NCBI RefSeq assembly: GCF_002153605.1
Contig: NZ_JOPG01000009.1
Span: 1-64,000, forward strand
DNA length: 64,000 bases
Direction of reading: 5' to 3'
From: Acetobacter malorum
GTDB lineage: Bacteria; Pseudomonadota; Alphaproteobacteria; Acetobacterales; Acetobacteraceae
The translations under genes and the position numbers were made by a program. Under the pieces are notes generated by a model. It did no database searches. It saw nothing but the letters and a program-made list of their open reading frames with translations, and had not been told where the DNA came from. Shown here piece by piece: positions 41,657 through 59,532 of the stretch; the stretch's first letter is position 1; every line of letters starts with the position of its first letter.

Positions 41657-42238
41657 TTATTTGCTGTCGCCAGAGAAGGTGTTGCTGATATCTTTGCCAG
41701 CCTTGTCACCCCAGTTGCCAATGGCTTTACCGGTCCGCTTGCCCCAGTTTTTGGTGGATTTAGCGGCGTCAGAAGTGCCTTCTTTTGTCTTGTCCCAGAC
41801 CTTTTCGGTTCCGTTCTTGGTTTTATCCCAGGCGTTGTTGGTGCCCTCTTTGGTCTTATCCCACGCCTTTTCGGACCCGTTTTTGGTTTTATCCCAAGCG
41901 TTGTTGGTGCCCTCTTTGGTCTTGTCCCAAGCTTTTTCGGACCCGTTCTTGGTTTTATCCCAGGCGTTATTGGTGCCTTCTTTTGTCTTGTCCCAGGTTT
42001 TTTCGGTTCCGTTCTTGGTTTTATCCCAGGCGTTATTGGTGCCCTCTTTGGTCTTGTTCCAGGCTTTTTCGGATCCGTTCTTGGTTTTATCCCACGCCGT
42101 ATCTGTGGCCTGACGCGTGTTGTTCCACGCGCGATTCACCGGGTCCTGATCTTCAGCATGAGCTGCGGGCAGGCTGAGCGTGAAGGCAGCAGCCCCCAGC
42201 ATTGTGGTCAGGGCGATCCGGAATGTCGCAAACGTCAT
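41657..42238 (-). CDS. Secreted LEA-like 11-mer repeat protein
   Basis: A 193-residue exported protein. A signal peptide covers residues 1-28 (ALTTMLGAAAFTLSLPAAHA). Residues 48-157 are ten tandem 11-residue units alternating AWDKTKNGSEK and AWDKTKEGTNN, i.e. five 22-residue blocks. Hydrophilic charged 11-mers of this kind are seen in group 3 LEA proteins, which protect membranes and proteins during drying; the resemblance is of pattern, not proven homology. A Trp/Gly/Lys tail follows (STKNWGKRTGKAIGNWGDK). GGAGG lies 9 nt before the ATG at 42238. Confidence 0.75.
   Translation of the reverse strand: MTFATFRIALTTMLGAAAFTLSLPAAHAEDQDPVNRAWNNTRQATDTAWDKTKNGSEKAWNKTKEGTNNAWDKTKNGTEKTWDKTKEGTNNAWDKTKNGSEKAWDKTKEGTNNAWDKTKNGSEKAWDKTKEGTNNAWDKTKNGTEKVWDKTKEGTSDAAKSTKNWGKRTGKAIGNWGDKAGKDISNTFSGDSK
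41768..42097 (-). repeat. Five tandem 66-bp in-frame repeats
   Basis: Five near-identical 66-bp units encode the ten 11-residue repeats. Most differences are single-base and often silent, consistent with recent expansion by slippage or unequal crossing-over. Copy number is likely to vary among strains. Confidence 0.9.
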
Positions 42239-55515: not shown

Positions 55516-55946
55516 TGAGTGCCATTAAAGACCTGCGCGGGCAGAGGTTTGGCAGCCGAACCGTATATGCGGCTGCACCATCACGTCACGGCAAAGCCCG
55601 ATGGAAAGTGCGTTGTGATTGCGGCGCCCTGTCTGAAGTATTTGGTTTCCTCTTAAGGAGGGGGCAGGCCAATAATTGCAATGTATGCGCCATGGCTGAG
55701 CGTCGGAGCAAAGCTATACGGAAGGCGGCTGCGCTTCCCGGAAGAGAAATTATCGGGCCGTCTGAAGTCAAACGCACGGGCACGGGCATTTATGCACAGG
55801 TGCGATGTGGATGCGGGTTTGTCTCTGATGTCCGCCTCTCAGTTCTGCGCAAAGGCGGCGCGCAATCCTGCATCTCATGCGCCAATTCGACCTATCGCAA
55901 AAAACGCACATCATCAAAATTTAACGCGGAGAGCTGCAATGTCTGA
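55515..55946 (+). CDS. Double zinc-ribbon phage protein
   Basis: A 143-residue protein made of two similar halves. Each has a CxCG knuckle and a CxxC knuckle: VRCDCGALSEV...NNCNVCA and VRCGCGFVSDV...QSCISCA. Likely binds two zinc ions and nucleic acid. No known family; function not assigned. Confidence 0.62.
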   Translation: MSAIKDLRGQRFGSRTVYAAAPSRHGKARWKVRCDCGALSEVFGFLLRRGQANNCNVCAMAERRSKAIRKAAALPGREIIGPSEVKRTGTGIYAQVRCGCGFVSDVRLSVLRKGGAQSCISCANSTYRKKRTSSKFNAESCNV

Positions 55947-56229
55947 TCTTCATCCCCATGACCACAACCAGCTCACCGGCGACGACGACGCAGCAGTAGG
56001 CGGCATTGCGGCTGACCGGCTGCGGTCAATTATTGAGCGCGTTGAAAGGCTGGAAGAGGAGCGGAAGGCTCTCGGCGGAGATATCAAGGATATTTTCACA
56101 GAGGCTAAATCAGCCGGGTTTGACGTGAAAACGATCCGCCAGATCATCCGCATGCGCAAGCAGGAGCCGGGCGAACTCGAAGAGCAGGAAACCCTGCTTG
56201 ATATCTACCGCAAAGCATTGGGGATGTGA
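55939..56229 (+). CDS. gapR: GapR/DUF2312 family DNA-binding protein
   Basis: A 96-residue homologue of GapR, the alphaproteobacterial protein that clamps overtwisted DNA. The match is strong: IAADRLRSIIERVERLEEER, DIKDIFTEAKSAGFDVK, IRQIIRMRKQE and EQETLLDIYRKALGM. Located among phage replication genes. The chromosome should carry its own copy. Confidence 0.88.
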   Translation: MSDLHPHDHNQLTGDDDAAVGGIAADRLRSIIERVERLEEERKALGGDIKDIFTEAKSAGFDVKTIRQIIRMRKQEPGELEEQETLLDIYRKALGM

Positions 56230-56978: not shown

Positions 56979-57176
56979 ATGGCTGAGCCAGCTATACCGT
57001 CAATTAGCATTGACGTGAAGACAAAACAGGAAGCCTTTGACTGGGCAAGGCAAGATATGATGCGCCTGTTTTTTCACCTCATTCAGAGCGGGATCGACGT
57101 TTACACGCTACGCGGTGAAATCGCCTGCACCATGAACGCTATGCACGGTGCCCTCCAATTGGAGGGACTTGAATGA
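56979..57176 (+). CDS. Small phage protein of unknown function
   Basis: A 65-residue helical protein (QEAFDWARQDMMRLFFHLIQ). Ribosome site GGAG 10 nt upstream. Overlaps the initiator gene by four bases. Confidence 0.6.
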   Translation: MAEPAIPSISIDVKTKQEAFDWARQDMMRLFFHLIQSGIDVYTLRGEIACTMNAMHGALQLEGLE

Positions 57177-58036
57177 GTGCCAGAGCCAGAGACTGGGCTT
57201 ATGCGGTGCAGCTTCCTCTTTGCCAGAAATTCGTGCTGGTGGCTCTGGCAGAGCGTGCCAATGACGAGGGGGTGGCGTGGCCGTCTGCGCGCACAATTTG
57301 TGACATGACAGGCGCATGCGACAAGGCCGTTCGGAATGCTCTGAAACAGCTTGAGCAGGGTGGGTTCATCACCCGCGTAACCAGCGGCACGCGGTCAAAA
57401 ACGTACCAGCTCAGCATTGAAACGCGGAATGAGATACCGGTATCTCGTACCGGTCAACCGGTATCAGATACCACCCAACCGGTACCAGATACCGCGGTAC
57501 GTCATACCGGTTACCCGGTACCTCATACCGCCCAACCGGTATCTCGTACCGGTCTGACCGGTACCACGTACCGACAAACCGTAAGTAACCGTCAAGAACC
57601 TACACAGTGCACTGCGCCGCGCGACGACGATTGGGTGTCAGCAAACTGGATGAAAATCGGGAATGACGTGTTGGCCGTTTCCGGACACAACCCCGCCAAC
57701 GCGATGGCCCCCACTGGCATCGTTCGCCAATGGCTGGCAGACGCTCGGGCGATTGGGTATTCCCTGACTTCGGCGCGGGAAGTGATCCTCGAAACCGTCA
57801 AGCGTCGCTGTGAGCGCGGGAGTGGCCGTGGAAAAGCCCCGGCATGGTTCGACAAGCCCGTTCGGGAGGCGATTGCCACCGGATGCACGGCTTCGGCGAG
57901 CCCAGAGCTGCCAGTCGATGCCCGAGCCATTCAGGACGCCTACCGGGATCATGTGGTCTGGTGCTCGAACCACCGGGAAAAGCGCAAGCCGTATGAGCAG
58001 TTTGAGGCGGAATGGCGCGGAAGGCATGCGGCATGA
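57173..58036 (+). CDS. Phage replication initiator (O-like, HTH_36 domain)
   Basis: A 287-residue protein. The N-terminal winged HTH (VLVALAERANDEGVAWPSAR, then ACDKAVRNALKQLEQGGFIT) is of the kind found in phage initiators. The middle (residues about 89-135) is a low-complexity PVSRTGQ-type repeat encoded by DNA iterons. The C-terminal domain (MAPTGIVRQWLADARAIGYS onward) probably loads the helicase encoded next. As in lambda O, the origin would lie within its own gene. Overlaps dnaB start. Confidence 0.78.
   Translation: MSARARDWAYAVQLPLCQKFVLVALAERANDEGVAWPSARTICDMTGACDKAVRNALKQLEQGGFITRVTSGTRSKTYQLSIETRNEIPVSRTGQPVSDTTQPVPDTAVRHTGYPVPHTAQPVSRTGLTGTTYRQTVSNRQEPTQCTAPRDDDWVSANWMKIGNDVLAVSGHNPANAMAPTGIVRQWLADARAIGYSLTSAREVILETVKRRCERGSGRGKAPAWFDKPVREAIATGCTASASPELPVDARAIQDAYRDHVVWCSNHREKRKPYEQFEAEWRGRHAA
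57437..57577 (+). repeat. 21-bp iterons, probable phage replication origin
   Basis: Six 21-bp units and one 15-bp unit in tandem: starts at 57437, 57458, 57479, (57500 short), 57515, 57536, 57557. Unit example: CCGGTATCTCGTACCGGTCA plus A. Each unit has GGTAYC facing RTACC, i.e. a small inverted repeat. They encode PVSRTGQ-like heptapeptides. Confidence 0.82.
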
Positions 58037-59532
58037 ACGGGCTTTTCGATGCTGCTGAGGTGCAGGCGGACATGCCTCGCAATCTGGCGGCGGAGCAATC
58101 CATCCTCGGGGCCATCCTAACCAACAACCGGGCCTACGAGGCTGTGTGTGATTTTCTGGAGCCGCGGCACTTCTACAGCCCGGTCTACAGCTGGATTTAC
58201 GAGCAAATTCAGGGTCTGATCCAGAGCGGCAGCGTAGCCAATCCAGTGACGCTCAAGCCCCTGATTGACGGATCGGACAAGCTGGCGGGAATTGGCGGCT
58301 TCGCGGTTGTCGTGCCGCTGCTGATGAACTCGTTTGTCGGCCTCCCGACGGTCAAGGGGGATGCTACCGCCATTCGGCAAGCATGGGTCCAACGGGAACT
58401 GCTCCAGCTATCAGCAGACATGCGGGACATGATCGTGACCCCAGATGGGAACTCCCCTGACGAGGTCGTGGATTATGTCGAGAATGGTCTGCTGACGCTG
58501 GCGCATGGACGGCAGGACGTGAGGCAGTCGTCGCTCTCTGACGCCATCCAACGCGTTCTGGCGGCGTCGGAAGAAGCATCCAAGCGAGACGGGATTGTTG
58601 GCGTGTCGTCTGGCTATGAGGGGCTGGACAACATCACGGGCGGCTTTGAGCCGGGAACGCTGACGATCATTGCCGGGCGGCCAGCTATGGGCAAAACAGC
58701 GGCGGGGGTCGGTATCGCGGTGCGGTCCGCCAAGAAAACCGGGAAGCGGGTGCTTTACTGGTCGGGCGAGGTGAGCGCCGAAGCGATCTCTCAGCGCATC
58801 ATTGCCTCAAAAACCAAGATCCCCGTGATTTGCATCCGGTCCGGGAAGAACCGTGGGCGGCAGCTCGAAGATGGAAGCTTCTCGGCTAGCACGCCGCTAC
58901 GGCAGGAGCAGTTTGACCGCATGGTCGTGGCGGCACGGCAGTCGCAGGAAATCCCGCTGGTGATAGACGACACTCCCGCCATCACGGTTGCGAAGCTGTA
59001 TGGGATCGCGCGGCGCATGGCTCGCTCCAAAGAGGGGTTGTCCATGATCGTGGTGGATTATCTGGCGCTCATGCGCGGGACGCAGCAGGCCCGGCGGCAG
59101 GGCAAATATGCCGAGGTTTCGGAAATCAGCGCGGACCTTCTGGCGCTAGCCAAAACGCTGGGTGTGCCCGTCATCGCGCTGCAGCAGCTCAACCGTGAGG
59201 TAGAGAAACGCGACGATAAGCGGCCCTCCAAATCTGACCTGCGGGACAGCGGCAATCTGGAGCAGGACGCATCCGTGATCATGCTGCTCTACCGGGAGGA
59301 ATACTACCTCGACCAAGAGGGGCCGCCGAAGCAGAAACCCACAGAGAGCGCAGAGGCATGGATGGGTCGCGTGGACCAGTGGGAAAAACACAAGGACGCC
59401 GTGCATGGGAAAGCCCAGTGGATCATCGACAAAAACCGTCAGGGCGAAACGGCTACCATCCAGATGCTCTTTGACGGGCCGGGAACATGGTTCCGCGATA
59501 TGGCCGAGGGGGCAGGCAGTGAACCGTGGTGA
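58033..59532 (+). CDS. dnaB: Replicative DNA helicase
   Basis: A 499-residue DnaB-family helicase. N-terminal domain (AAEQSILGAILTNNRAYEAV), then the RecA-like motor with Walker A GRPAMGKT (215-222), Walker B MIVVDYLALM, and the DnaB motif QLNREVEKRDDKRPSKSDLR with EQDASVIMLLYR. It is a phage copy, loaded by the initiator encoded just upstream (4-bp overlap). Confidence 0.95.
   Translation: MNGLFDAAEVQADMPRNLAAEQSILGAILTNNRAYEAVCDFLEPRHFYSPVYSWIYEQIQGLIQSGSVANPVTLKPLIDGSDKLAGIGGFAVVVPLLMNSFVGLPTVKGDATAIRQAWVQRELLQLSADMRDMIVTPDGNSPDEVVDYVENGLLTLAHGRQDVRQSSLSDAIQRVLAASEEASKRDGIVGVSSGYEGLDNITGGFEPGTLTIIAGRPAMGKTAAGVGIAVRSAKKTGKRVLYWSGEVSAEAISQRIIASKTKIPVICIRSGKNRGRQLEDGSFSASTPLRQEQFDRMVVAARQSQEIPLVIDDTPAITVAKLYGIARRMARSKEGLSMIVVDYLALMRGTQQARRQGKYAEVSEISADLLALAKTLGVPVIALQQLNREVEKRDDKRPSKSDLRDSGNLEQDASVIMLLYREEYYLDQEGPPKQKPTESAEAWMGRVDQWEKHKDAVHGKAQWIIDKNRQGETATIQMLFDGPGTWFRDMAEGAGSEPW

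Follow-up and report, generated by a model that had tools for sequence, protein, structure and literature searches.

Inside its own reading frame, the replication initiator gene of an Acetobacter malorum prophage carries a run of closely related repeats. This raises the question of whether the repeats serve the DNA or the encoded protein and, if they serve the DNA, what reads them. We analysed a stretch of 64,000 nucleotides, referred to as the window, and use its positions throughout unless another locus is named. The following features carry the argument.

57173 to 58036, forward strand: replication initiator gene, 287 amino acids, encoding an N-terminal winged helix, a disordered linker encoded by the repeats, and a C-terminal domain
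57173 to 57418, forward strand: predicted winged-helix DNA-binding domain, residues 1-82 (Pfam HTH_36, 3.3e-9; AlphaFold2)
57320 to 57358, forward strand: recognition helix, residues 50-62 (AlphaFold2 helix; covariation)
57426 to 57438, no strand assigned: degenerate dyad GGAATGAGATACC, one mismatch, abutting iteron 1
57439 to 57451, no strand assigned: iteron 1, GGTATCTCGTACC
57460 to 57472, no strand assigned: iteron 2, GGTATCAGATACC
57481 to 57493, no strand assigned: iteron 3, GGTACCAGATACC
57496 to 57508, no strand assigned: iteron 4, GGTACGTCATACC, 15 bp after iteron 3
57517 to 57529, no strand assigned: iteron 5, GGTACCTCATACC
57538 to 57550, no strand assigned: iteron 6, GGTATCTCGTACC
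57560 to 57572, no strand assigned: iteron 7, GGTACCACGTACC, in a codon frame unlike that of the other six
57577 to 57604, forward strand: second element, a tandem of AACCGTAA, AACCGTCA and AACCTACA in 10-bp steps
58033 to 59532, forward strand: DnaB-type replicative helicase gene, overlapping the initiator stop codon (Pfam DnaB_C 7.5e-74; PHROG 5.8e-91)

The initiator matches Pfam HTH_36 (PF13730) with 36.8 bits against a curated cut-off of 25 (E 3.3e-9). Three PHROG replication initiation families (1032, 270 and 391) match it at 1.3e-16, 3.1e-16 and 6.5e-16; the best-matching stretches lie within residues 1-159, and an O-like name is among the matched families. RepL (0.025) and RP-C (0.061) are weak Pfam matches. 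At E <= 1, Pfam returned no match to the iteron plasmid families Rep_3 and RepA_N, nor to Phage_rep_O, which we take to be the Pfam model for the family of lambda O, P22 gp18 and phi80 gp15. No NCBIfam model above its cut-off names the initiator, and the NCBIfam helicase models match the adjoining helicase gene below their cut-offs. An AlphaFold2 model of the initiator, built with 41 sequences from a larger set (mean pLDDT 79.5, pTM 0.40), contains a confident winged helix in residues 1-80 (blocks of pLDDT 83-97), a linker of residues 89-146 mostly below pLDDT 50, and a mostly confident C-terminal helical part. It is the predicted-disordered linker that the iteron array encodes. A fold search of the PDB with this model gave nothing at E <= 0.001 and only generic winged helices, and solved structures searched by sequence yielded weak matches, the best at E 0.0077.

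Close to the initiator gene lie an HTH_3 gene of repressor type and a terminase pair, and an identical initiator protein is encoded on an IMG/VR viral contig. Upstream of the initiator in the same prophage, the open reading frame 55681-56229 (forward strand) encodes a GapR-like DNA-binding domain (Pfam 9.7e-32). GapR binds overtwisted DNA at forks, and the presence of such a gene near a candidate origin is suggestive. GC skew has negative values between about 46 and 54 kb, and no origin-like turn occurs at the array; we rejected it as an origin signal.

A pattern scan found seven exact copies of the 13-bp dyad GGTA-N5-TACC between 57439 and 57572, all within one open reading frame. They start at 57439, 57460, 57481, 57496, 57517, 57538 and 57560, at intervals of 21, 21, 15, 21, 21 and 22 bp, and form seven regularly spaced sites about 270-400 bp into the initiator gene. 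The original prediction of an iteron array inside this gene is confirmed, and the facing half-sites, first given as GGTAYC and RTACC, take the form GGTAY-NNN-RTACC in all seven dyads. The proposed make-up of six 21-bp repeats plus a 15-bp unit has to be revised, however: the array stands, but its unit is a 13-bp dyad in seven copies. Likewise, the repeats are in frame for six of the seven dyads, which share one codon frame, but the seventh is shifted by one base (TGTTYR). The interval first given, 57437-57577, does hold the array; it ends at 57577, where a second type of repeat begins. The degenerate dyad at 57426-57438 is possibly an eighth, weak site.

The dyads far exceed what the encoded peptide would produce by chance. 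When we re-sampled synonymous codons for the array peptide, using the codon usage of other prophage gene stretches, the mean was 0.097 sites and the maximum 3 in 20,000 trials, against 7 observed. Shuffling the array's own synonymous codons gave a mean of 4.38 sites (P = 0.0048). Within 57428-57589 all seven valine codons are GTA, a codon that encodes 4 of the 112 valines of seven other prophage gene stretches. Exact GGTA-N5-TACC is confined within the window to the seven array copies, and the whole genome (3.09 Mb) holds 22, that is, these seven and 15 scattered ones. A separate tandem array at 41775-42094 consists of 66-bp units (4.8 copies, 89% matches) that can also be read as 33-bp units.

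The repeat search in related genes, proposed alongside the original prediction, bore it out. We surveyed 318 loci (viral contigs, genomes and a few named records) for open reading frames with this winged helix. The 288 hits, after 10 that were too short and all duplicates were removed, left 222 unique sequences in 109 clusters at 75% identity. The viral contig searches were seeded with single proteins, and one such seed (L022) found no relatives in the viral contigs. An array was called where a perfect dyad with 4-bp arms occurred at least three times at P <= 0.005 against the synonymous-codon null; controls were the longest other open frame of at least 500 nt at each cluster locus, which need not be a real gene. 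In-gene dyad arrays were present in 49 of the 109 initiator clusters and in 0 of 109 control frames (38/69 vs 1/69 in an earlier, smaller round), and 60 of the 109 related clusters failed the test. The commonest geometry is 4-N5-4 (27 of the 49 array genes), and the spacings are mostly 21, 22 or 23 bp (51, 32 and 25 intervals). Read in translation, a 21-bp spacing yields the heptapeptide of the window. Of the 49 array genes, 36 have sites in more than one codon frame (two or three). Breaks of register recur as well: the arrays of L017, L025, L024, L070, L016 and L072 contain breaks (27 or 24 bp, or 75 bp in L017) comparable to the 15-bp break in the window.

We then set the amino acids of each winged helix against the letters of the sites in its own gene. 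The covariation set comprised 55 clusters with an odd gap, at least three sites and P <= 0.03, the others being dropped; it contains related sequences, with an effective N of 34.3 of 55 at 60% identity. Letters are the symmetrised consensus by distance from the dyad centre, the GGTA of the window being d6, d5, d4 and d3. Winged helices were aligned blind to the DNA, and columns with at most 30% gaps were scanned against d3-d6. The three strongest column-letter pairs (permutation z) were residue 55 with d3 (7.8), residue 54 with d6 (7.1) and residue 51 with d5 (5.0); residue 50 with d4 was absent among the best 25. The four residues compared with half-site letters are D50, K51, R54 and N55 in the window initiator. 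They occupy positions i, i+1, i+4 and i+5 of the AlphaFold2-predicted recognition helix, the pattern expected of a DNA-facing helix surface.

At residue 55, Arg goes with C (11/11), Glu with G (3/3), and Asn, Tyr, Gln, Ser, Asp, Gly, Ala or Met with A (30/30), with Thr (A 4, G 1) and Lys (A 4, C 1, T 1) divided. At residue 54, Arg goes with G (25/26), Gln with C (8) or T (3), Lys and Ser with G (1 each), and Ile, Met, Phe, Trp, His, Leu or Thr with T (14/16). Arg or Lys at residue 51 goes with G in 47 of 48 clusters, other amino acids in 1 of 7. Residue 50 is looser: Glu occurs with C 18 times and A 3 times, Asp with A 8, T 3 and C 1, and Arg with C 8, A 4, T 2 and G 1.

Such a table could reflect shared ancestry, with related genes inheriting helix and letters together, rather than readout. 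The relatedness within the set speaks for this possibility, and we tested it in three ways. In leave-one-out prediction, trained only on sequences less than 40% identical outside the helix, residue 55 gave d3 correctly in 52 of 55 clusters (majority letter 38) and residue 54 gave d6 in 37 of 55 (majority letter 26), both of which argue for readout. At d4, by contrast, residue 30 (37/55) did slightly better than residue 50 (36/55; majority letter 31), and at d5 no column rose above the majority letter (48/55), because G is nearly universal there; these two positions leave ancestry its room. The second test compared pairs of genes at least 60% (or 50%) identical outside the helix, pairs that share members and are not independent. 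Among the pairs at 60% or more, d6 and residue 54 differed together in 13 of 13 letter-differing pairs and agreed in 42 of 42 same-letter pairs. Residue 50 differed in 11 of 12 pairs with different d4 letters and also in 8 of 56 with the same letter; for residue 51 and d5 the counts were 2 of 3 and 2 of 70. At d3 this comparison had no letter-differing pair, a point on the side of ancestry, and residue 55 differed in 43 of 63 pairs; at 50%, residue 55 differed in 39 of 39 letter-differing pairs, and also in 59 of 80 same-letter pairs. L007 and L009 differ in their d4 and d5 letters with the same residues, again as ancestry would allow.

The third test was prospective. From the scan for the second element described below we took 120 stretches among the matches listed, all of them found by that element alone, and dropped 4 genes belonging to old clusters. 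The remainder gave 65 new clusters ('new' meaning less than 75% BLAST identity to the training genes, not unrelated), of which 24 had any array and 21, with an odd gap, were kept. All four letters were predicted correctly in 10 of the 21, as against a mean of 2.4 with shuffled pairing, and 65 of 84 single letters were correct, as against a shuffled mean of 43.5 (0 of 100,000 shuffles as good). By position, correct predictions of 21 (majority letter in brackets) were d6 13 (2), d5 17 (15), d4 18 (14) and d3 17 (13). The other 11 clusters had at least one wrong letter, and all were counted as misses. On our reading, the dyad finder took the wrong register (gaps 1 or 9) in L341, L345, L322 and L353, and L426, L434 and L358 reflect the ambiguity of Gln towards T; L402 had three of four letters by the automatic map and was counted as a miss. 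Mean gene GC is similar across the main site letters, which also speaks against ancestry. Taken as a pattern in sequences, the code is a real statistical regularity, as the leave-one-out, pair and prospective tests indicate, strong for residues 54 and 55 and weak for residues 50 and 51. Shared ancestry in place of readout is an unlikely account of it.

The second type of repeat lies directly 3' of the last iteron (median distance 6 bp) and has the family consensus GAACC[AG]TCA, on the coding strand and at one-turn spacing. The window has three copies (57577-57584, 57587-57594 and 57597-57604), of which two carry one mismatch each. Counted over 59 array genes (P <= 0.03), the 74 nt downstream of the arrays contain 135 copies with at most one mismatch to AACCNTCA. 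The expectation from the rest of the genes is 0.093 per 74 nt, and the reverse strand of the downstream stretch has 1. Of 87 intervals between copies, 76 measure 10, 11 or 12 bp, and the copies fall into all three codon frames (47, 56 and 32). At least one copy is present in 48 of the 59 array genes, and three within 45 nt in 33 of 59; three within 45 nt also occur in 18 of 50 other clusters, and on the reverse strand in 0 of 109. The synonymous null leaves a milder excess: the genes average 2.29 copies where it gives 1.00, and 25 of the 59 reach P <= 0.05 individually. Across the family the letters of the tandem are far steadier than those of the iterons. The downstream element is mildly AT-richer than the gene in the window (0.45 vs 0.40), and across the 59 array genes its mean AT content is 0.48 vs 0.40, higher in 53.

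A scan of viral contigs for three exact tandem copies gave at least 156 match positions, at least 104 of them in open reading frames with this winged helix. On our reading the other matches listed include truncated genes of this kind, ACCGTC microsatellites and further repetitive frames, together with two initiators, L350 6540-7316 (reverse strand) and L419 11507-12424 (forward strand). These two initiators carry a AACCATCAAGC tandem with no match to the winged-helix profile and no repeated dyad upstream of the tandem; both match O-like and DnaD-like PHROGs, L419 weakly. We infer that the tandem would be read by something other than the variable recognition helix, and that it would be an opening or loading signal. 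Its location on the coding strand also means that it may act at the RNA level.

Among known systems, the closest in design is lambda, whose origin lies in the initiator gene O, where four inverted-repeat iterons are annotated at distances of 20-24 bp. Passages of PMC7466680 describe O dimers on the lambda iterons and, in Stx phages, extra iterons that lengthen the O protein. The claim that lambda O shows the same design is right for the placement of iterons inside O; it does not extend to the sequence family. The winged-helix profile matches none of lambda O, P22 gp18 and phi80 gp15 at E <= 10 and all six INPHARED relatives examined of the 35 found, and we rejected filing the initiator with lambda O by sequence. 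Lambda differs further in having gene P next to O, where the window has a DnaB-type helicase gene, and its iterons have no adjoining GAACCRTCA tandem, three one-mismatch words falling inside the iterons. On our reading the lambda iteron letters do not obviously fit the residue-letter code. P22 resembles the window in having an initiator gene with an annotated internal origin (gene 18) followed by a DnaB-like helicase gene (gene 12), but a dyad scan shows no repeated perfect 4-bp-arm dyad in it.

The window protein matched 35 named phage records, and for six of these dyads and tandem words are given as raw counts. Gp48 of Stenotrophomonas phage CUB19, annotated as a hypothetical protein with no origin feature in the stretch shown, matches the profile and has two CGCA-N5-TGCG dyads and four tandem words; we read its dyad word as the one that its helix residues would predict. 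Microcystis phage Mvi-Yong1342-1 matches the profile in a gene annotated 'replication protein', again with no origin annotated in the stretch shown, and has three GAAG-N3-CTTC dyads and three tandem words. Gene O of Escherichia phage vB_EcoS-733R5 (L443 1216-2133) has three GTCA-N5-TGAC dyads, a linker with a repeated SDTSK peptide, and five divergent one-mismatch tandem words at 21-25 bp steps. The remaining three also match the profile. RothD has two GCCA-N5-TGGC dyads and lacks the tandem; in Itty13 two tandem words stand apart from each other and no dyad family is convincing; S1249 has neither dyad family nor tandem. Two of the six (Itty13 and S1249) lack an array-forming dyad family of at least three copies. 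For ORF43 of Francisella phage KIRK, passages of PMC7924643 report a repeated amino-acid motif in the protein and, from the analysis of this frame, a putative origin of four repeat units; they contain no residue-to-letter comparison. In the PLE satellite of Vibrio cholerae, according to passages of PMC8263062, the DNA-binding domain covaries with the origin and the C-terminal domain is conserved; there, the sites are intergenic and the initiator is of the RepA_N family.

A gene of the same genus as the window (L044) invites comparison with the PLE satellite. Its C-terminal part is common with the window initiator (75% identical, 78% in the best segment), and its N-terminal domain differs, matching a PHROG replisome organizer (7.6e-9). 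Its linker stretch contains no dyad three or more times and no exact AACCNTCA, as expected if winged helix, iterons and tandem travel together. Within the A. malorum genome itself, a gene at G000:C31:51956-52231 weakly matches the C-terminal part of the initiator (35% identity, E 6e-5), and its linker has no array.

We read the iterons inside the initiator gene as the iteron part of a replication origin of the prophage. The initiator would probably use its N-terminal winged helix to bind every 13-bp dyad as a dimer, and residues 50, 51, 54 and 55 would read the four half-site letters, which the covariation suggests most clearly for 54 and 55. A spacing of 21 bp amounts to two helical turns and would place the dimers on one face of the DNA, the register breaking between sites 3 and 4. 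The GAACCRTCA tandem would be the place of strand opening or helicase loading, where the DnaB-type helicase of the adjoining gene would act. The codons would be dictated by selection on the DNA sites, making the disordered linker and its heptapeptide by-products. We give this explanation, with its readout, tandem and by-product-linker steps taken as one, a probability of roughly 0.87. The best reading is of a putative origin of known kind, the lambda-type in-gene replication origin, in view of the annotated iterons inside lambda O and the longer O of Stx phages.

Dyads are typical of operators too, and the weak matches of the fold search with the model include the regulators MarR, Fur and ZitR (E 0.01 to 0.1). 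The winged-helix protein might accordingly repress its own operon from within the gene, with replication starting elsewhere. This is quite improbable, given the initiator PHROG matches and the adjoining helicase gene, the seven regularly spaced sites so deep inside the gene, the second tandem element beside such arrays, and the lambda precedent of annotated iterons.

The reading of the array as part of an origin makes the DNA, not the peptide, the object of selection, and close relatives bear on this directly. Eleven of 49 genus genomes have any match to the initiator; apart from the window's own, a single one has a near-full-length match at an identity of at least 50%. The Acetobacter garciniae record L013 and a genome of this genus (G307, locus L043) encode the same protein. 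The 15-bp interval between iterons 3 and 4 is common to L004, L005, L006 and L013. L004, L005 and L006 each retain the GGTA word, d4 being T in 13 of the 14 half-sites, and their winged helices differ from that of the window at 6 to 8 residues, none of them 50, 51, 54 or 55. The array of L006 lies in 1441-1995, a frame that no longer follows the family beyond the first of the words of the second element and ends as a 184-aa product. L013, 55% identical overall, has C at d4 in 14 of 14 half-sites, giving the word GGCA-N5-TGCC, and d5, d4 and d3 are symmetric in all seven dyads. Of the 10 differences between its winged helix and that of the window (82 residues), three fall at residues 50, 51 and 55 (hypergeometric P = 0.005). 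T replaces the first G in four of its half-sites and leaves perfect 4-bp arms in 3 of 7 dyads, which explains why its array test reaches only P = 0.02 and why it stands in the 55-cluster set and outside the 49.

In the six in-frame units of the L013 protein, Val is replaced by Ala and Thr by Ala while the d5-d3 symmetry stays. Together with the excess over the synonymous null, this upholds the proposal that DNA function drives the sequence; a heptapeptide conserved while the DNA repeats are lost is the opposite of what L013 displays, and related genes use two or three codon frames. The sites of the array appear to be selected at the DNA level and not through the peptide. Selection on the protein, with the heptapeptide (PVxxTGQ-like) as a functional linker or binding repeat from which the DNA symmetry follows, draws on the similar peptides of six of seven units in one frame, and we reject it as having next to no probability, since re-sampling produced at most 3 sites where the gene has 7, the six in-frame L013 units have lost both Val and Thr, the seventh unit is out of frame, relatives read their sites in several frames, and the linker is predicted to be disordered.

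In the sections of the open-access literature that we searched we found no account of a residue-letter code or of the GAACCRTCA tandem; the passages seen of PMC7466680, PMC7924643, PMC8263062, PMC10783043, PMC2647930, PMC8951638 and PMC6209633 describe neither. A single array, under the origin reading, is ordinary in kind. The interest comes from the family, which amounts to an in-gene record of reader and target with a partial, testable code and a second signal. Tentatively, and at somewhat less than even odds, we propose that the in-gene origins of this winged-helix class form a self-labelled library, each gene holding a reader and its target words. A four-residue, four-letter code would then reveal the binding word from the protein: at 54, Arg for G, Gln for C or T, and Ile, Met, Phe, Trp and a few others mostly for T; at 51, Arg or Lys for G; at 50, Glu mostly for C and Asp for A or T; at 55, Arg for C, Glu for G and most others for A. 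In the same proposal the strand-specific GAACCRTCA tandem would be a common signal for unwinding or helicase loading, and its reader would be a shared replication factor, perhaps the host's, in place of the variable recognition helix.

If the code holds, the origin-binding words of many uncharacterised phage initiators would be predictable from sequence, origin specificity and replicon compatibility would become testable on natural variants, and a DNA-protein recognition code would have been obtained from genomes without a binding experiment. That the tandem is common to the family raises the question of which replication factor reads it. If the explanation is true, a class of odd low-complexity, repeat-bearing linkers in phage proteins would be by-products driven by the DNA.
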